DNA of 20,775 nt from a virus, in the IMG/VR virus record IMGVR_UViG_3300032296_001102, positions 1 to 20,775 of that record, one strand, 5' to 3'. The notes beneath the pieces were generated by a model. It searched no databases. It was given only the letters and a program-made list of their open reading frames with translations, and had not been told where the DNA came from. Both the position numbers and the translations under genes were made by a program. Below are positions 6,531 through 19,873 of the stretch, piece by piece; position 1 is the first letter of the stretch; every line of letters starts with the position of its first letter.

Positions 6531-6865
6531 TGGCCACGTTTACCTACACGCCTGATTTTGATGCAGCCGAATCTCAACGGCCTGTTGTGCGCCGCGTGCA
6601 GTTTGGGGACGGCTATGAGCAACGTTTGGCGTATGGCTTGAACACTCAGCCATCGGAATGGCGCTTGACGTTTGCTAATCGCACGGACACGGAGCGCAAT
6701 GACATTACAAATTTCCTAGAAGCACGGGGTGCGACTGAATCTTTTGATTGGACACCACCGTATGGCTCGGCTGGTAAATGGGTTTGCGATGAATGGTCAA
6801 CGACAATGATTGCGGCCAACATCAATACTGTTCAGGCCACGTTCCGACAGGTATTTGAACCGTAA
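6530..6865 (+). CDS. Minor tail protein M-like (distal tail)
   Basis: A 111-aa protein with the lambda M signature: 'VRRVQFGDGYEQRLAYGLN' near residues 21-39, 'EWRLTFANR', 'FLEARGATESFDWTPP' at about 63-78, and the ending 'VQATFRQVFEP'. M-type proteins form the hexameric ring joining the last tube ring to the tip complex. The start codon shares one base with the tape-measure stop (TAATG), with a GGAGG ribosome binding site about 10 nt before it. The stop is joined in the same way to the L-like gene. Family assignment is secure from the motifs and gene order. Confidence 0.9.
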   Translation: MATFTYTPDFDAAESQRPVVRRVQFGDGYEQRLAYGLNTQPSEWRLTFANRTDTERNDITNFLEARGATESFDWTPPYGSAGKWVCDEWSTTMIAANINTVQATFRQVFEP

Positions 6866-8169
6866 TGGCGTATCCCGCGTGGACTAGTTCATCCGGTTAC
6901 GTCGTTGGTGACATTCGACGTGCAACTACGCTGCAGGCCAGCGGCCTTGTTTTTCGTTGTACAACTGCTGGCGCATCGGGCGTCACTGAACCAGCGTGGC
7001 CAACGGATATTGGCAGCACTGTCGTTGATAACACGGTTGTTTGGACTGCAATTAGCAGCGTCTACGAAGATCTTGCTGTCCTTGCTCCAAGCGCCGTTAT
7101 TGAATTGTTTGAATTGACATTGGATGCAACGTTGCACGGCAGCAGTGATGTTTATCGCTTTCATGCTGGATGCAATGCAAACGCAACGGGCAACGTCATT
7201 TGGAATGGCAATGCTTACACACGCTTGCCAATTAAAGCCGATGGATTTGAATTTTCATCAACTGGATCACTGCCAAGGCCAACACTGACAATTGCCAACC
7301 TTGATGGCGGCATTACTGGTGTGTTGTTGTTGGTGAATGCAACAACGCCTGGCAACGATTTGATTGGCGCAAAATTAAAACGGATTCGCACGTTGAAAAA
7401 ATATTTAGACGGTGAACCTGCGGCTGATCCGCACGCCAAATTTCCAGATGAAATTTGGTTTGTAGATCGCAAATCTGCCGAAAATCGCGATCTCGTTCAA
7501 TTTGAACTTGCCAGCAAATTGGACATGGCTGGCGTAATGCTGCCGCGCCGGCAAATTGTGTCCAACATTTGCCAATGGCAATACAAATCAACTGAATGTA
7601 GCTACACACCTGTGGCCACCTTTTCAGGTACTTACAACTTGCGAGCATTGGCCGCTACGTATTCGCAATCTGGCACAACAATTACCGTGACATCAACGTC
7701 GCATGGTTATGTTGCAGGTGACAAAGCCTGGTTGGATTTCACAAGCGGCACGGCTGTTGATGGCTATTACACAGTTGCAACTGCTGCAACAAATACCTTC
7801 ACGGTTACAGCGGGAACAAGTGCAACAACAAGTGGCAATGTGAGCTGCTTTTTATTGAAAGTTGCAGCCACGTCCCATGGACTGTCGCTCAATGATTCCG
7901 TATATCTTGATTTTACGTCTGGAACCGCAACAGATGGTCGTTACATGGTCAATGTTGCTAACGCTAATAATTTTTGCCTTGAAATTAAATCTGGTACAAC
8001 CACCAGTGGCAATGTGACTGCAACGCAGTGGTTTACATCTGGCAATTCGCCAACAACGATCTTGGCTAATGACGTATGCAAAAAAACGTTAGCTGCTTGT
8101 AAATTGCGTTTTGGCGACAATGCTGAATTGCCATACGGTTCTTTCCCAGGCGTAGGGTTTGGCGCATGA
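6865..8169 (+). CDS. Minor tail protein L-like with inserted repeats
   Basis: A 434-aa protein, nearly twice the length of lambda gpL (232 aa). Residues 5-61 form a small Trp/Gly-rich module ('GYVVGDIRRATT', 'FRCTTAGASG.TEPAWP') resembling carbohydrate-binding modules attached to phage tail proteins. Residues 70-245 are the L core ('VIELFELTL', 'YRFHAG', 'LPRPTLTIANLDGGITG'). Four cysteines match the cluster ligands of lambda gpL: C236-x8-C245 and C405-x6-C412, the same spacing within each pair as in lambda. The two pairs are separated by about 160 residues carrying two beta repeats instead of roughly 22. A 4Fe-4S cluster is inferred from this. L joins the M ring to the tip. It starts at TAATG and ends at ATGA with the K gene. 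Confidence 0.88.
   Translation: MAYPAWTSSSGYVVGDIRRATTLQASGLVFRCTTAGASGVTEPAWPTDIGSTVVDNTVVWTAISSVYEDLAVLAPSAVIELFELTLDATLHGSSDVYRFHAGCNANATGNVIWNGNAYTRLPIKADGFEFSSTGSLPRPTLTIANLDGGITGVLLLVNATTPGNDLIGAKLKRIRTLKKYLDGEPAADPHAKFPDEIWFVDRKSAENRDLVQFELASKLDMAGVMLPRRQIVSNICQWQYKSTECSYTPVATFSGTYNLRALAATYSQSGTTITVTSTSHGYVAGDKAWLDFTSGTAVDGYYTVATAATNTFTVTAGTSATTSGNVSCFLLKVAATSHGLSLNDSVYLDFTSGTATDGRYMVNVANANNFCLEIKSGTTTSGNVTATQWFTSGNSPTTILANDVCKKTLAACKLRFGDNAELPYGSFPGVGFGA
7600..8076 (+). repeat. Two FCCH-like beta repeats inserted in L (protein-level repeat)
   Basis: Residues 246-404 of the L-like protein. Copy one (about 264-329) has 'SHGYVAGDKAWLDFTSGTAV' and then 'TTSGNVS'; copy two (about 332-388) has 'SHGLSLNDSVYLDFTSGTAT' and 'TTSGNVT'. 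The pattern HG-x-DxxxLDFTSGTAxDGxYxV is the one often labelled as an E1-FCCH-like domain in phage structural proteins. The DNA copies have diverged, so the duplication is old or both came in together. The insert lies between the cysteine pairs of the presumed iron-sulfur site. Confidence 0.75.
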
Positions 8170-8879
8170 CATTAGCAAATTCGCTGCAACAGCAAATTCT
8201 GGATCATGCGAAAGAGCAAGATCCCAAAGAATGCTGCGGATTGATTGCAGTTGTCAAAGGTCGCCGTCGTTATTTTCCCTGCAAAAATTTGGCCGATACG
8301 CCTGACGAGCACTTTGTGCTTGATCCTGTTGATTTTGCTGCAGTAGAAGATCAAGGCGAGATTGTGGCTGTTGTACACAGCCATCCAATTAGCGCACCAA
8401 TTCCTTCCCAGGCTGATCGTGTGGCCTGCGAGCGCAGTGGCTTGCCTTGGTACATTGTCAACCCCAAAGCAGAAACTTTTGGCTACTGCGAGCCGGTTGG
8501 GTACAAAGCACCAATTGTTGGCCGTGAATTTGTATTTGGCATCTTGGATTGCTACACGCTGTGCCAAGACTGGTACGCCGAAAACATGGCGTTAAATCTT
8601 GGCGATTACGAAAGGCGCGACAAGTTTTGGGAGCGTGGTGAGAATTTATACCTAGACAATTTTTCAAAAGAAGGTTTCCGCCGCGTGTCTTTTGAAAACT
8701 TGCGATTTGGTGATGCCATTTTGATGCAACTACAGTCGCCCCTGCCGAATCACGCTGCTATTTACGTTGGTGATCAGCAAATTATTCACCACGTTCAAGG
8801 ACGGCTCAGTAGCAGGGACGTATACGGCGGGTATTATGTGAAGAACACGGCCATGGTCCTGCGGCATGAAAGTCGTTAA
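8166..8879 (+). CDS. Tail assembly protein K-like: JAB/MPN plus NlpC/P60 peptidase
   Basis: A 237-aa two-domain protein. The N-terminal domain (about 1-110) is a JAB/MPN metallopeptidase: the acid E22 in 'PKECCG', then H71-S-H73, S81 and D84 in 'HSHPISAPIPSQAD', the complete JAMM zinc set. The C-terminal domain (about 115-237) is NlpC/P60-like: nucleophile C129 in 'LDCYTLCQDWY', H196 in 'NHAAIYVG', and H208/H209 as possible third residue. Lambda K has the same architecture and is needed for tip assembly; whether it cuts peptidoglycan or processes a tail protein is not settled. The start overlaps the L stop (ATGA), and its last 14 nt overlap the I-like gene. Confidence 0.92.
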   Translation: MTLANSLQQQILDHAKEQDPKECCGLIAVVKGRRRYFPCKNLADTPDEHFVLDPVDFAAVEDQGEIVAVVHSHPISAPIPSQADRVACERSGLPWYIVNPKAETFGYCEPVGYKAPIVGREFVFGILDCYTLCQDWYAENMALNLGDYERRDKFWERGENLYLDNFSKEGFRRVSFENLRFGDAILMQLQSPLPNHAAIYVGDQQIIHHVQGRLSSRDVYGGYYVKNTAMVLRHESR

Positions 8880-9540
8880 GGTCTACGGCGCACTGCGCAA
8901 GAAGCTGGGTCAGTGCCGCTTTGAATTTCATGCAGAGACGCCCGCGCAGGCGTTAAAGGCTTTGTGCGTCAATTTTCCTGGCCTTGAAAAATGGTTGATT
9001 GATAGTGAAGAAGATGGTGTCAGTTATAGGGTCACGGTTGGAAAAGAAAAATTAACGGCTGAAAATGCAATGCCACTTGTTCTTCCTTGGAGCGAGCGCG
9101 AAGTTTTTAGCATTACTCCCGTTTTGACTGGCGCTGGCGGTGGTGGAGTTGGCCAGATTTTTGCAGGTATTGGCTTGGTTGCATTGGCAATCATTGCAGG
9201 TCCTGTTGCTGGTGGCTTTTTGGGTCTGGGCGCTGGCTTAAGTGGAGTGGGCGGTGGTATTGCTGCTTCAGGATTGGTGGGCGGTGCATTTGCAACAGCA
9301 ATCGGAAGCATTGGTGCTGCTTTGATTTTGGGTGGTGTCGCTCAAATGATTTCACCAGCCCCGCAAAACGCTATGGCAGCATCCATGGAACGCGGTTCTG
9401 AAGCGGCAAAGCTGGAATCATTTAGCTTTTCCGGCATTGTCAATACGGCCAAGCAGGGCATGCCTGTTCCAGTTGCATACGGACGGGTTGTAGTTGGTAG
9501 TGCTGTTATTAGTGTTGGCCTGGACGTGGATCAGGGCTGA
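8866..9540 (+). CDS. Tail assembly protein I-like
   Basis: A 224-aa protein. Residues 1-87 form a ubiquitin-like beta-grasp domain ('VVKVYGALRKKLGQCRFEF', 'TPAQALKALCVNFPGLEKWL'). Residues 89-161 are a Gly/Ala-rich hydrophobic stretch able to form membrane-spanning hairpins. The C-terminus ends 'QGMPVPVAYGRVVVGSAVIS', a conserved I-family tail. Lambda I acts with J, K and L in building the tip. The ubiquitin-like fold next to a JAB/MPN domain in K recalls peptidase-substrate pairing, though this is inference. It overlaps K by 14 nt and J by one base (TGATG). Confidence 0.88.
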   Translation: MKVVKVYGALRKKLGQCRFEFHAETPAQALKALCVNFPGLEKWLIDSEEDGVSYRVTVGKEKLTAENAMPLVLPWSEREVFSITPVLTGAGGGGVGQIFAGIGLVALAIIAGPVAGGFLGLGAGLSGVGGGIAASGLVGGAFATAIGSIGAALILGGVAQMISPAPQNAMAASMERGSEAAKLESFSFSGIVNTAKQGMPVPVAYGRVVVGSAVISVGLDVDQG

Positions 9541-12500
9541 TGAAAACAATCCGTGGTGCTGGTGGTGGCGGTGGTGGTGGTTGCTTTTTAGGGCACACCC
9601 TTGTCAATGTACCTGGCGGTCAGCGCAGGATTGATGAACTGGAAATTGGTGATCTTGTTCTTAGTTTTGATCACACAGGCACGGTTCATCAAGCCAAGAT
9701 TTTAAAAGTTCACGAACACGAAAACGAACGCGTTATTCGTTACACGTTATGGGGCGGCCAGTGCCTTGACGCAACACCAAACCATTGGGTGTTAAACCAG
9801 TTCAACGCTTTTGTTGAAATTGATACCCTTGGTCCTGACGATTGTTTGGTTGATGTCAACGGTCACCTTCGTCCAATCGTTGGTAAAACTGAATTTTGCA
9901 ATGGCACTGTCTACAATCTAACGGTTGAAGGGCATCACACTTTTATTGCCAATGGTGTTCGCGTTCACAATGCTGGCCTTGGTCTTGGCATTGCTGGAGC
10001 TGGCGGCGGCGGTGGCGGTGGCGGGGGCAAAGGTGGTGGCGGCGGCGGTGGTTCTGCTTATGTGCCAACAGAAACTTCTGACAACATCAAATCAACGCAA
10101 TTTGCAAGCGTATTGGATTTGCTTAGTGAAGGCGAAATACAAGGTTTGGACGATGGAGAAAAAAGCATTTACCTAGATGACACCCCTGTCAAAAGTGCTG
10201 CTGGTACGGCAAACTTTACCGGTTATTCAATTACCACCAGAACTGGTACGCAAAATCAGGCTTATATCACTGATTTAAACGGAACCGAATCTGAGCAAGG
10301 TGTTGGCGTCACAATTACAAAAGCCACGCCTGTAATTCGCACAATTACCGACACTGATGTTGATCGCGTTCGAGTAACCCTGCAGTTACCAGCATTGCAG
10401 GTGTTTACCGATAAAGGCGATATCCTTGGCAGTTCGGTCAATGTAAAAATTTCAGTTCAATACAACGGCGGTGGCTATAGCGTTATTCACGACGACACGA
10501 TCACCGGAAAAACATCCAATGCATACCAACGTGATTACATTGTTGCGCTTTCTGGATCATTCCCAGCCGACATAAAAGTTGAACGTGTTACTGATGATCC
10601 GACCACAACCAAAACGCAAAATATTGTCAACTGGTCTTCGTATACGGAAATTATTGACGAAAAGCTGCGCTATCCAAATAGTGCAATTGCGTTTTTGCGG
10701 TTTGATTCCAAAAACTTCAATAACATTCCAACTCGTAAATATTTAATTCGTGGCATCAAAGTTCGTTTGCCATCTAACGCAACAGTTGACACGACAACTC
10801 ATTTGGGACGCGTCACTTATTCAGGCGTTTGGGATGGCACTTTTGGTGCAGCTACTTGGTGCAGTGATCCTGCATGGTGCTTGTGGGATTTGCTAACAAA
10901 TACTCGTTACGGTGCATCAATCCCCGAATCAAGTCTTGACCGGTATGACTTTTATGCAATTAGCCAATATTGCAATTCACTAGTTGGCAATGGCTTTGGC
11001 GGTCAAGAACCACGTTTTTCGTGCAATATTCTTATCAATAGTCGGGACGAAGTTTATAACGTTATTCAAGAATTTACGACGCTTTTCCGTGGCATTGCTT
11101 ACTACGGCGCCGGCTCAATGGTGCTTTTGCAGGACAAACCTGCGGATAGCCAATATTTAATTGGTCCTGCCAATGTCATTGATGGAACTTTTTCGTACAG
11201 TGGCACGTCTCAAAAATCACGCCATACCACTGCAACTGTTGGTTATCAAACGTATGCAGGACTTGGTGAAATTGAATACGAATATGTTGAAGATGCTGAT
11301 GCTGTTGCCAAATACGGCGTCGTCAATAAAGACATTAAAATGCTCGGTTGCTACAGCCGTGGTCAAGCGCATCGCGCTGGTAAATGGGCATTGCTCAGCG
11401 AGCAAAACCTGACCGAGACAGTCAGTTTTTCGGTGTCAATTGATAGCGGCATTGTTCTTCGGCCTGGAATGGTCATTGATATTGCCGATCCCCTGCGAGC
11501 CAATACTCGACGCATGGGACGCATTGCGGCGGCTACAACCACCACCGTCACTGTTGATGACGCATCTGTGTCTGTTGATCTTGGCAACGCACCAACGCTG
11601 TCAGTGATGATGCCTACCGGTTTAGTTGAAACAAGGACTATTACCGGTCGCAGTGGTGCTGTATTGACTGTTGGCACAGCATTTAGCGAAGCACCAAATG
11701 CGCAATCTGCATGGCTTGTCCAAACCAATGACATTGAAAGCCAACAGTTTCGCGTGATCAGTGTTGGCGAAGGAGAAGAAGGCAGTTATGGAGTCACGGC
11801 ACTTGCATACAACGCCAGTATTTACAACGCAATTGAATCTGATGTTGATCTTGTTTTTAACGACATCACCAATTTCTCGGCAATTCCAGAGCCGCCTTCT
11901 TCAATCACTGGCAATGAATACTTGTACGAAGACGGTCAAAACGTTTTCACAGCTTTTGAACTTAGCTGGAACCCGCCAAGCACTGGCATCAAACCTTTGT
12001 ATTACAAGGTTGAATATCGCCTTGGAAATGACAACTGGTTGACCGTTCAGCCATCTGCTTCAAGCGTCACTTTAAAAAATCTTTCCGCTGGTGCGTTGGA
12101 TGTCAACATTCAATCTGTTAGCAGTGTTGGAAAGCTGAGCACAGTTGCAAATGCCAGTTTCACGCTAATTGGCAAAACCGCAATTCCTGAAAACGTACAA
12201 AACCTAACTTTTGAAGTTATCAATGCAAACTCGGGTCGATTGAAGTGGACGCAAGCTGCAGACCTTGACGTGAAGGTTGGTGGAAAAGTCCACATCCGTC
12301 ACAGCAGCCTTACTGATGGCACAGCCACCTGGAGCAACTCGGTTGATCTAATCAATGCTGTTGCTGGCAATGCAACTCAGGCCACGATCCCGTTGATTGA
12401 AGGCGAAGTGCTTGTCAAGTTTGCCGATGACTCCGGCAACATGAGCGCCGCCGAAACAAGCGTAATTATTGATTTGCCTGACACGTTAGGTCCACTGATA

Positions 12501-13304
12501 ATTTTGCAGCGACGAGAAGATCAAGATACACCGCCATTCCAAGGCACGAAAACAAATTGTTTTTACAGCGATGAATTTGATGCGTTGTGCATTGATGGCA
12601 ATGCATTTATAGACAGCGTTGCCGACATCGATGCGCTTGCCACGTTTGACGTGCTTGGTGATGTGTTAGCAAGTGCTACTTACAATTTTGCCAATACAGT
12701 TGATCTTGGAAATATTTATTCTCTTGATCTTGTTCGATATTTTGTCACCACCGGCTTTTTCCCGAGCGACTTGGTGGATTCGCGAACAGCGGACGTTGAT
12801 GCTTGGAGCGATTGGGATGGTGGCATTACTGATCAAGTCAACGCAACCATGGAAGTCCGCACGACTGACAATGATCCTGCTGGAACTCCAACGTGGTCAG
12901 GTTGGACTTCATTTGCAAACGGCACCTACAAAGGTCGTGGCTTCCAATTCCGCGCCAATTTGCTTTCTACATCAATCGACGAAAATATTTTGATTGATGA
13001 GTTGGGCTTTAATGCAAGCCTTCAAAAGCGTCAGGAACAAAGCAATGGTGCTGTCGCAAGTGGCGCGACATCAAAAACAATCACCTTTGCCAATGCCTTT
13101 TTCACGGGCACCGCTTCCATTGGCGGCGTGAACACCAGCCTGCCAAGCGTGGGAATTACCGCTCAAAACATGGCCAGCGGTGATTACTACACCGTAACAA
13201 GCGTGTCTGGCACTGGATTCACGGTCACATTCTACAACAGCAGTAACACCGTTGTTGACCGTAATTTCAACTGGAGCGCAGTAGGGTATGGCAAAGCGGC
13301 GTAG
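9540..13304 (+). CDS. Tail-tip attachment protein J-like with embedded Hint/intein domain
   Basis: A 1254-aa central tip protein that contacts the host receptor. Residues 1-14 ('MKTIRGAGGGGGGG') are the start of the usual Gly-rich N-terminus, interrupted by a Hint domain (15-144), which then resumes as poly-Gly (about 154-171). Residues 179-770 follow lambda J closely: 'DNIKSTQFASVLDLLSEGEI', 'WSSYTEIIDEKLRYPN', 'WCLWDLLTNTRYG', 'ISQYCNSLV.NGFGGQEPR', 'GCYSRGQAHRAG'. Two fibronectin-III-like domains lie at about 780-880 and 882-980. The last 270 residues are a fibre-like region ('WSDWDGGI', 'WSGWTSFANG', 'TITFANAFFTG'), probably the variable receptor-contact part. The start is coupled to the I stop. 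Unlike ordinary J proteins, this one must either be processed or tolerate the Hint domain. Confidence 0.93.
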   Translation: MKTIRGAGGGGGGGCFLGHTLVNVPGGQRRIDELEIGDLVLSFDHTGTVHQAKILKVHEHENERVIRYTLWGGQCLDATPNHWVLNQFNAFVEIDTLGPDDCLVDVNGHLRPIVGKTEFCNGTVYNLTVEGHHTFIANGVRVHNAGLGLGIAGAGGGGGGGGGKGGGGGGGSAYVPTETSDNIKSTQFASVLDLLSEGEIQGLDDGEKSIYLDDTPVKSAAGTANFTGYSITTRTGTQNQAYITDLNGTESEQGVGVTITKATPVIRTITDTDVDRVRVTLQLPALQVFTDKGDILGSSVNVKISVQYNGGGYSVIHDDTITGKTSNAYQRDYIVALSGSFPADIKVERVTDDPTTTKTQNIVNWSSYTEIIDEKLRYPNSAIAFLRFDSKNFNNIPTRKYLIRGIKVRLPSNATVDTTTHLGRVTYSGVWDGTFGAATWCSDPAWCLWDLLTNTRYGASIPESSLDRYDFYAISQYCNSLVGNGFGGQEPRFSCNILINSRDEVYNVIQEFTTLFRGIAYYGAGSMVLLQDKPADSQYLIGPANVIDGTFSYSGTSQKSRHTTATVGYQTYAGLGEIEYEYVEDADAVAKYGVVNKDIKMLGCYSRGQAHRAGKWALLSEQNLTETVSFSVSIDSGIVLRPGMVIDIADPLRANTRRMGRIAAATTTTVTVDDASVSVDLGNAPTLSVMMPTGLVETRTITGRSGAVLTVGTAFSEAPNAQSAWLVQTNDIESQQFRVISVGEGEEGSYGVTALAYNASIYNAIESDVDLVFNDITNFSAIPEPPSSITGNEYLYEDGQNVFTAFELSWNPPSTGIKPLYYKVEYRLGNDNWLTVQPSASSVTLKNLSAGALDVNIQSVSSVGKLSTVANASFTLIGKTAIPENVQNLTFEVINANSGRLKWTQAADLDVKVGGKVHIRHSSLTDGTATWSNSVDLINAVAGNATQATIPLIEGEVLVKFADDSGNMSAAETSVIIDLPDTLGPLIILQRREDQDTPPFQGTKTNCFYSDEFDALCIDGNAFIDSVADIDALATFDVLGDVLASATYNFANTVDLGNIYSLDLVRYFVTTGFFPSDLVDSRTADVDAWSDWDGGITDQVNATMEVRTTDNDPAGTPTWSGWTSFANGTYKGRGFQFRANLLSTSIDENILIDELGFNASLQKRQEQSNGAVASGATSKTITFANAFFTGTASIGGVNTSLPSVGITAQNMASGDYYTVTSVSGTGFTVTFYNSSNTVVDRNFNWSAVGYGKAA
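9582..9971 (+). other. Mini-intein / bacterial intein-like (Hint) domain within J
   Basis: Residues 15-144 of J. Block A starts at C15 ('CFLGHTLVNVPGGQRRIDEL', then 'EIGDLVLSFD'). Block B carries T79-x-x-H82 ('DATPNHWVL'). Block F is 'VYNLTVEGHHTFIANG', and block G ends 'VRVHN' with H143-N144. These are the residues for N-S acyl shift and Asn cyclisation. The residue after N144 is Ala, not Cys/Ser/Thr, so classical trans-esterification and splicing are not expected. That fits A-type bacterial intein-like domains, which cleave and can splice by another route. At 130 aa it has no homing endonuclease. Both flanks are poly-glycine. The domain is evident; its activity is inferred. Confidence 0.88.
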
Positions 13305-17975: not shown

Positions 17976-18989
17976 GTGACTCAGAACCGCCTTCGCCTTG
18001 TTGACCTGTTCAAGTATTACAAGGAACTGCCGCATCAAACGGCGGCGATCTTTGAATTGGAATCTGCCATTCTTAAAGCCAAGCCTGGCATTTTGAATCG
18101 CGATCAGATCTGGTTCAAGACCTGGAGTCAGGCTGGCAAACAGGACAGGTTTGATAACAACTGGGATGGTGTTTGCGCTGCTGGCAAGAAGGCTGGTGCA
18201 AAGTTCCCTGAACTTGTTGCTGCACAGTGGGCGTTGGAATCTGGCTACGGCAAGCACGTATCAGGCGAGCACAATTACTTTGGACTAAAAGGTTCTGGCA
18301 GCACACGCAACACCAAGGAGTACATCAACGGGCAGTGGATCACAATTCAGGACACGTTCCTTGATTTCCCTGATCTTGAGACGTGCGTTTATTACTTGGT
18401 TGAGCGGTGGTACAAGGACTATCACATCTACAAGGGTTGCAATAACGCTGGTGATCGCGAAGCCGCTGCGCGTTGGCTGGTAAATGATGGGTACGCCACT
18501 GACCCCACTTACGCTGACAAGCTGATCAAGCTGATGAATCAGCATGTGCAGGGCAAGCCGGCAGACGATAAGTTCACGCCTGACAAGCCATTCAACTTCA
18601 AGGTGACGCCAAACATTACCTACGGCGAACTGGCATTGTTTGATGAGAAGCGTCGCTTCCAGGTGCAAGCGCAATGCGACACCGCGATTGAACTGTGCAA
18701 ATACCTTGAGAAGGTGCGCAGCCATTTTGGTAAGAAGCCGATCATCATTACTTCCGGCTATCGCCCACCGGCTGTGAATAAACAAGTGGGCGGTGCCAGC
18801 AATAGCGAGCACCTGTACAACATGACTGGTGTTGGCGCAGTTGACTTTTACGTCAAGGACGTGGACATCTACGAAGTACAAGAGTACTGTGATCAGACCT
18901 GGCCGTACTCCCTGGGATACGGTGCAACCAAGGGGTTTGTGCATCTTGGAATGCGGCTAGGTCGTCCACGTATTCGTTGGGATTACTGA
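17976..18989 (+). CDS. Bifunctional endolysin: glucosaminidase plus M15 peptidase
   Basis: A 337-aa protein starting at GTG. Residues about 55-195 form a glucosaminidase (FlgJ/LYZ2-type) domain: 'LVAAQWALESGYGKH' with catalytic-type E88, and 'HNYFGLKGSG' at 99-108, then the helical 'YADKLIKLMNQH'. Residues about 210-337 form an M15 D,D/L,D-carboxypeptidase domain: 'ITSGYRPPAVN', zinc ligands H279 (S-E-H), D290 ('GAVDFY') and H323 ('FVHLGM'). The H-to-D spacing is 11 rather than the more usual 7, so the loop has a four-residue insertion. The two parts would cut both the sugar chain and the peptide of peptidoglycan. A linker Lys/Pro/Asp-rich at 192-208 separates them. There is no signal peptide, so holin-dependent export is expected. 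A tail-borne peptidoglycan hydrolase is less likely but possible. Confidence 0.88.
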   Translation: MTQNRLRLVDLFKYYKELPHQTAAIFELESAILKAKPGILNRDQIWFKTWSQAGKQDRFDNNWDGVCAAGKKAGAKFPELVAAQWALESGYGKHVSGEHNYFGLKGSGSTRNTKEYINGQWITIQDTFLDFPDLETCVYYLVERWYKDYHIYKGCNNAGDREAAARWLVNDGYATDPTYADKLIKLMNQHVQGKPADDKFTPDKPFNFKVTPNITYGELALFDEKRRFQVQAQCDTAIELCKYLEKVRSHFGKKPIIITSGYRPPAVNKQVGGASNSEHLYNMTGVGAVDFYVKDVDIYEVQEYCDQTWPYSLGYGATKGFVHLGMRLGRPRIRWDY

Positions 18990-19514
18990 GTGTCTGTACT
19001 TTGCGACTGGCAGATCCGCTCATTGTGTGAAGGCGGCGGCATGATCGTGCCGTTCGATTTGGAATTGCTCAATCCCGCGTCAATTGACGTGCTGCTGGGC
19101 GACAACCTGATGATCGAGTCGCCTGTCGACATGACAATGCAGTTGCACAGCCTGCAGGGCTACACCGCACAGGATCCTTACTGGCTGCGACCTGGTGAGT
19201 TTGTGCTGGCTGAAACTCGCGAAACCTTCGACATTCCTGAGCACATCAGCGGACAGTTTGCGCTGAAAAGCAGCAGGGCAAGGGAAGGTTATTCCCACAT
19301 GCTGGCTGGCTGGATCGATCCGGGCTGGCACGGCTCAAAGCTGACGCTGGAGCTGCAGAATGCACGCAAAATGCATTCACTGCCGTTGTATCCGGGACTC
19401 AAAATTGGACAGATAATCTTCTTTGAAATGAGTGAAAAACCACTCAAAAGTTATGCCGAAGTTGGGCATTACAATAACGATACCAAAGTGTCAGCTTCTA
19501 AGGTAAATCCCTGA
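18990..19514 (+). CDS. dcd: dCTP deaminase (Dcd family, dUTPase-like fold)
   Basis: A 174-aa enzyme converting dCTP to dUTP for dTTP synthesis. It starts at GTG directly after the endolysin TGA, with GGGA 7 nt before it. Motifs: 'PASIDVLLGDN' (29-39), 'LKSSRAREG' (92-100, substrate-binding Ser/Arg), 'AGWIDPGWHGSKLTLELQN' (106-124, with general-base E121 matching E. coli Glu138), 'LYPGLKIGQIIFFE' (133-146), and a C-terminal 'HYNNDTKVSASK'. Length fits the family. A bifunctional dCTP deaminase/dUTPase cannot be excluded by eye. It is the only nucleotide-metabolism gene in the window and is fused in layout to the end of the late block. Its last 17 nt overlap the convergent HNH gene. Confidence 0.9.
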   Translation: MSVLCDWQIRSLCEGGGMIVPFDLELLNPASIDVLLGDNLMIESPVDMTMQLHSLQGYTAQDPYWLRPGEFVLAETRETFDIPEHISGQFALKSSRAREGYSHMLAGWIDPGWHGSKLTLELQNARKMHSLPLYPGLKIGQIIFFEMSEKPLKSYAEVGHYNNDTKVSASKVNP

Positions 19515-19812
19515 ACTGGTACATCCAATACCAGATTGCAATTTCATTGTTTTGTGTATAAAAATCTTGCTCTCTATACCAAAGTGTCCATTCTGTTGAT
19601 CCTTTGGATCCATTGCAGCGCAGGCATGCTGGTACTAGGTTCTCTATCACAGTTTGCCCACCACGATGACGTGGGATGATGTGATCTAGCGATTGCGCAT
19701 GCTCATCGCAATAGGCACATTTACCACAAAAAGCATCAAATATTTTTAATCTAAATCGCGCTCTTGTTTCTCTCTTTGGAATCAGACTGGTCTCGTCGAT
19801 CCAAGAGTGCAT
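19498..19812 (-). CDS. HNH endonuclease
   Basis: A 104-aa protein on the minus strand. The ATG at 19812 is chosen because GGAG (19820-19823) lies 7 nt upstream; a TTG at 19833 would add 7 residues. It has the zinc-supported HNH core: C32-A-Y-C35, 'LDHIIPRHRGG' with H44, 'NLVPAC' with N58, C63-L-R-C66 and N67 ('LRCNGSKGS'). The final H of HNH is N here, as in many members. A Trp-rich C-terminus ('EWTLWYREQDF', 'IWYWMYQF') follows. Free-standing phage HNH genes of this size act as homing endonucleases or DNA nickases. It points against its neighbours and overlaps the dcd end by 17 nt, typical of a later insertion. Confidence 0.88.
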   Translation of the reverse strand: MHSWIDETSLIPKRETRARFRLKIFDAFCGKCAYCDEHAQSLDHIIPRHRGGQTVIENLVPACLRCNGSKGSTEWTLWYREQDFYTQNNEIAIWYWMYQFRDLP

Positions 19813-19819
19813 GACGCGG

Positions 19820-19823
19820 CTCC
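19820..19823 (-). promoter_or_regulatory. Ribosome binding site of HNH gene
   Basis: GGAG on the minus strand, 7 nt before the ATG at 19812. It supports that start over the upstream TTG. Confidence 0.6.
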
Positions 19824-19873
19824 GTTTGCACAAATCGTAGGAACGATTGCAGTCGAAAGGAAGAAGAAAAACA

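Follow-up and report, generated by a model that had tools for sequence, protein, structure and literature searches.

A small intein-like, probably self-cutting domain is found at the start of the tail-tip protein J in hundreds of uncultured phages. The copy described here lies in a window of 20,775 nucleotides, which is the whole stretch of DNA analysed (IMG/VR virus record IMGVR_UViG_3300032296_001102, positions 1 to 20,775). It occupies residues 15-144 of J (9582-9971; plus strand, as for all tail features below). This 130-residue segment is confirmed as a real and complete Hint domain, and it has the anatomy of a type A bacterial intein-like (BIL) domain. For the location of this conserved type A BIL-like domain, the N-terminus of J, searches of the open-access literature, with few subscription journals covered, gave no earlier report.

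Outside the Hint domain, sequence matches indicate that J (9540-13304; 1254 residues), a tail-tip or central fibre protein, is normal for the lambda type. It matches PHROG 31, central tail fiber J (E 3e-228), FNIII-A_GpJ and Phage-tail_3, and, partially and below the model's cut-off, lambda_TipJ (E 2e-121). Both the J domains and the L-K-I-J gene order are present, and the neighbourhood holds the usual set: the tape measure gene, minor tail protein L (6865-8169; Pfam Phage_tail_L, 7e-49), a gpK-like protein with JAB and NlpC/P60 domains (8166-8879; Pfam Prok-JAB 3e-18, NLPC_P60 7e-14) and the tail assembly protein gpI (8866-9540; PHROG 32, E 6e-47), whose stop codon is overlapped by the ATG of J. 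Elsewhere in the window, a predicted cell-wall enzyme with fused glucosaminidase and M15 peptidase domains (17976-18989) and a free-standing HNH endonuclease reading frame (19498-19833, minus strand) beside a dCTP deaminase-like gene (18990-19514) were noted. No link between the HNH frame and the Hint domain was seen.

The gpI protein has a linker, LTGAGGGG, that resembles the N-terminal motif of J. An [ILV]xGAG motif follows the N-terminal domain in nearly all of 222 gpI proteins from related loci, and it is very similar to the motif in the N-arm of J, including J proteins without a Hint domain; in Halomonas phage H4907 the two read AIEGAG (gpI) and WIEGAG (J). In lambda, the lumen of the tip is plugged by gpI, and virions were found to lack gpK (PMC10721106). 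The hydrophobic plug segment of gpI was compared among nine loci (L094, L096, L097, L101, L111, L113, L128, L154, L162). Phages with near-identical sequence on either side of the segment have strongly different plugs, in the manner of cassette shuffling. A link between the plug and Hint status, suspected from the first pairs, was rejected, as the plug shuffles independently of the Hint domain in phages with and without it.

The identification of the Hint domain relies on profiles, structure prediction, fold searches and conservation. Two NCBIfam models pass their cut-offs, TIGR01443 (29.8 bits, cut-off 15.6) and TIGR01445 (24.9 bits, cut-off 24.5), while four Pfam Hint or intein models match below theirs, two of them narrowly (Intein_splicing 35.4 against 35.8; Hint 29.4 against 29.7); PT-HINT is below its cut-off (24.1 against 27.7 bits). 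The domain sequence runs CFLGHTLV...ATPNHW...VYNLTVEGHHTFIANGVRVHN, followed by Ala145. The predicted thioester nucleophile of block A is Cys15 (9582-9584), block B is T79-P80-N81-H82 (9774-9785), blocks F and G are formed by VYNLTVEGHHTFIANGVRVHN (9909-9971, the segment matched by TIGR01443), and the predicted site of cleavage by Asn cyclisation is H143-N144 (9966-9971). Position 4 of block F, N126, is Asn, where most inteins have Asp; Asn is also found there in Clostridium thermocellum BIL4 (CthBIL4) and in a Trichormus BIL-like domain. An AlphaFold model of J residues 1-184, built from 60 related sequences, scores above 90 in pLDDT throughout the Hint domain, while the glycine-rich flanks have low confidence. 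In Foldseek searches, BIL2 of the Tetrahymena BUBL1 locus ranks first (E 6e-11), with the gp41-1 intein and then Clostridium BIL4 after it. Z scores from VIA-align are about 20-21 for DnaB and RecA inteins, BILs and the hedgehog domain, and about 19-21 for the class 1 mini-inteins gp41-1, Mtu RecA and Ssp DnaB. When the PDB is searched with the profile of the Hint family, CthBIL4 (2LWY, E 1.6e-9) is the best sequence match, with inteins scoring close behind. Fold likeness by itself shows no activity.

The first-pass annotation had proposed a Hint domain at this place, open to cleavage or A-type BIL chemistry, and its coordinates and its residues C15, T79 and H82, H143-N144 and the +1 Ala (Ala145) are exact on translation. 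The profile matches, the AlphaFold model and the fold searches agree with that identification. Its statement that a non-nucleophilic Ala at the +1 position prevents classical splicing is borne out in every copy examined, and the survey of other phage J proteins that it suggested returned the same insertion site in many other phages. Its further proposals, cleavage timed by tip assembly and attachment of the leader peptide to another nucleophile, are possibilities.

Relatives of the domain are numerous in IMG/VR, with 451 found in one scan and 501 in another, and a one-off fusion or chance resemblance is rejected on these counts. Conservation was assessed in 200 copies, which comprise 134 distinct domains; 40 of the copies came from a search with the J body that did not select for Hint. 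These sampled rows are related by descent, and the counts are not independent. All 200 copies are located at the same place in J and are exactly 130 residues long. Cys1, the T-x-N-H of block B (with Ala for Pro in 11 copies), N126, the His-Asn end and the Gly at -1 are each invariant, as is the Ala at +1, while positions +1 to +4 read AGLG in 199 copies and AGLS in one. Since these copies share invariant catalytic residues, chance resemblance is ruled out. However, catalytic invariance alone is no proof of activity, because about 50 of the 130 positions are invariant among the 134 distinct domains anyway. Several of these, H58, H60, W83, N86, Q87, N89, C102 and H109, are not expected from splicing chemistry. 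Such family-specific invariants (H58, H60, C102, H109 and the D77-V92 stretch, with for example W83, N86, Q87 and N89) may point to regulation through a bound metal or a partner.

Beyond IMG/VR, no Hint match was found in annotated J proteins of cultured phages among 50,697 INPHARED records (E 0.01); the INPHARED matches occur only in helicase, terminase and other proteins, most at about 30% identity. The good plasmid matches are Hint proteins outside enzymes. Only one cellular match was obtained (L082), in a bin labelled Cyanobacteria. Two further loci were of separate interest. Ruminococcus phage NatCom_3870 (L243) encodes Hint-like domains, about 29% identical to the query, at two sites in hypothetical proteins, with some 2 kb between them. 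In L236, the frame that starts at the J ATG (MSRIVGAGGGGGGAS) does not match that of the Hint domain, the shift lying within a run of glycine codons; either the repeat is truly frameshifted or the read is in error.

The N-extein or leader, MKTIRGAGGGGGGG (residues 1-14, 9540-9581), contains an [IL]xG[AS]G-Gly motif. Behind the domain, A145-G146-L147-G148 (9972-9983), the predicted new N-terminus of mature J, is followed by a second copy of the motif, IAGAG (residues 151-155, 9990-10004), which flank comparison shows to be homologous to the sole copy in J proteins without Hint. The latter start, for example, MTKIIRGAGG or MTYLIRGAGG, and MSAAEWIEGAGG in Halomonas phage H4907. The first-pass annotation had described one glycine run interrupted by the domain. 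Glycine runs do flank it, but a single interrupted run is too simple a description: J proteins with Hint carry two motif copies, one on each side, plus the cassette-specific AGLG, and those without Hint carry one copy. The 14-residue leader looks like an added copy of the arm rather than half of a split glycine run.

Constraint rises along the chain, with pN/pS of 0.42 for the leader motif, 0.20 for the second motif and 0.03 for AGLG. The two motif copies within one protein are slightly closer than shuffled pairs (pN 0.179 against 0.217), and shared descent explains part of this likeness. The sequence IQGASTGGG occurs as both the first and the second copy in L154 and L162, where the codons of the two copies differ at five synonymous and no non-synonymous positions. 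The glycine-rich N-arm of J, residues 145-172 (9972-10055), is as long as the arm in J without Hint: across J proteins with the domain, the stretch between Ala145 and the core has a mean length of 28.3 residues (n=80), and the whole arm after Met in J without Hint has 28.4 (n=19). If spliced, the arm would have a mean length of 41.0 residues. A single lysine (K164, 10029-10031) recurs in the glycine-rich arm of J with Hint and in most J without it, and is a possible functional residue or acceptor.

The Hint domain is under purifying selection. In a codon comparison of 109 sequences, omega is about 0.07 in Hint, against 0.05 in the body of J, and both catalytic ends noted in the first-pass annotation are kept. 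Presence and absence were followed in a sample picked by the J body alone, with 40 sequences carrying Hint, 36 scored without it and 4 truncated; one scored as lacking it (L147) is a truncated copy with Hint on inspection. On the J-body tree, parsimony gives 11 gains or losses, at least 6 of them on well-supported branches. Because some pairs are much closer in Hint than in J (L018 and L024 have pS of 0.23 in Hint against 0.76 in J), Hint or its end of J moves by recombination. One empty allele is L094, whose DNA is 88% identical to that of the Hint-bearing L128 upstream and 93% downstream. Homology extends as far as the nucleotide preceding the Cys1 codon and is picked up again about 0.4 kb on, at the second copy of the motif, so that L128 differs from L094 by one precise in-frame insertion between near-identical flanks. 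Close relatives without Hint show that a J of this type can do without the domain. Hint and the J body vary together in GC content (r=0.84), evidence against a recent arrival, and recently acquired foreign DNA is not supported.

Self-removal of the Hint domain is, by a narrow measure, the probable fate of the J precursor. Type A BILs, which have a His-Asn end and no nucleophile at +1, yield mainly cleavage products (PMC4031507). The Cys1 with its conserved preceding Gly and the His-Asn with its conserved following AGLG appear to be the two halves of a self-processing site. The primary product would be a J precursor, with the glycine-rich leader and the Hint domain as residues 1-144. The domain would fold and form a thioester at the Gly14-Cys15 bond, Asn144 would cyclise, and the chain would be cut at N144/A145, before Ala145. 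Mature J would then start AGLGLGIAGAGGGG..., with the arm length and motif of relatives that never had Hint, and its N-terminal peptides would start AGLGLGIAGAGG. The thioester would mostly be hydrolysed, freeing the leader, and part of it may be attacked by the freed amine of Ala145 to give spliced J. We infer the chemistry, the sequence of events, which product predominates and whatever part the domain plays in assembling the tip. Removal at N144/A145 is the best-supported outcome because the segment behind Hint has the length and motif of an ordinary J N-arm; equal arm lengths could instead stem from the mode of cassette insertion. The classical branch step is impossible, as +1 is Ala. True splicing, in which the Ala145 amine attacks the Gly14 thioester and joins the leader to the arm, with both motif copies in mature J, is a less likely main outcome, although not a negligible one. 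It has been proposed for type A BILs that a freed amine attacks the thioester in this way (PMC4031507); both catalytic ends and the -1 Gly are invariant, a Gly thioester and an Ala amine are both unhindered, and the leader retains a J-type motif, also in L154 and L162. A purely discarded leader would not need this motif, which leaves room for splicing. However, the spliced arm would be about 13 residues longer than that of J without Hint, the type A BILs studied give mostly cleavage, and the leader is under weaker constraint than the arm on the C-terminal side.

The remaining alternatives are all improbable. A selfish, mini-intein-like passenger, kept by recombination between glycine-codon repeats and excising itself harmlessly with no benefit to the phage, would fit the patchy presence, the discordant synonymous distances of Hint and J, and the low-complexity, permissive insertion site. 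The absence of a homing endonuclease, purifying selection with family-specific invariants, no decay in any of 134 distinct copies, and a GC content suggesting long residence make it doubtful. This reading concerns benefit rather than chemistry, and may be compatible with cleavage. Marginally less probable again is that the Cys15 thioester passes the leader, with its IxGAG-Gly tail, onto a different protein of the tip, at a lysine or amine. This draws on the analogy with BIL2, the top Foldseek match, for which conjugation of ubl4 to ubl5 and Ras is reported (PMC8616854), on the JAB domain of gpK, and on gpI, which shares the xxGAGG motif and is a member of the tail protein I family; tail protein I has been described as ubiquitin-like and as adjoining a JAB protease (PMC1779556). 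Conversely, the leader has just 14 residues and no ubiquitin-like fold, the same genes and motif occur in phages without Hint, and the likeness to BIL2 is common to ordinary inteins. A more specific version, a one-shot device passing a Gly-tailed IxGAGG peptide, akin to the linker that follows the ubiquitin-like domain in gpI, to a tip lysine or amine with the JAB protein gpK as counterpart, is a shade more doubtful still; if true, phage assembly would include a step in which proteins are joined in a ubiquitin-like manner without ATP. Least credible is that Hint stays on J as a folded, unprocessed module. Structure or binding alone could explain the approximately 50 invariant positions, but both termini and AGLG retain the exact residues of self-processing domains, and Hint is present or absent in nearly identical J proteins.

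Terminases, helicases and nucleotide enzymes are the usual locations of self-splicing or self-cutting domains in phages. If the tail tip, which is involved in tail opening and host contact, has a conserved domain of the BIL type, this would tie Hint chemistry to virion maturation. The natural alleles with and without Hint, nearly identical elsewhere, make the role of such domains directly testable. The compact, constant size and the Gly/Ala junctions are of possible interest to protein engineers.

Compared with known systems, J belongs to the same family as lambda gpJ and HK97-type J and shares their L-K-I-J gene order, while the lambda- and HK97-type J proteins annotated in INPHARED, in contrast to J of the window, have no Hint match. 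Class 1 mini-inteins (gp41-1, Mtu RecA, Ssp DnaB) have the same fold, Cys1 and His-Asn end. Unlike them, J Hint has Ala145 in place of the +1 Cys, Ser or Thr and no classical transesterification, and its host site is not a conserved enzyme motif; a canonical intein is rejected because +1 is Ala in all copies. A homing endonuclease, lacking in mini-inteins too, has no room in 130 residues in any of the 200 copies. Type B BILs and pretoxin HINT domains have no block G His-Asn, which J Hint possesses. BIL2 of Tetrahymena thermophila BUBL1 (6Y75, 6TMM) is reported to transfer the upstream ubiquitin-like domain to lysine (PMC8616854). Ubiquitin-like domains flank BIL2 in one chain, whereas in the phage the member of a ubiquitin-like family is gpI, not J, and only the 14-residue glycine-rich leader precedes C15. 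The closest counterparts are type A BILs such as CthBIL4 (PDB 2LWY), to which J Hint is assigned on anatomy: it shares with them the fold with blocks A, B, F and G, the N-terminal Cys, the C-terminal His-Asn and a +1 residue other than Cys, Ser or Thr (PMC4031507). With CthBIL4 it also shares the Asn at block F position 4, at about 26% identity. It differs from these type A BILs in its fixed length, its fixed AGLG flank and its location at the extreme N-terminus of a tail-tip protein, within a glycine-rich arm.
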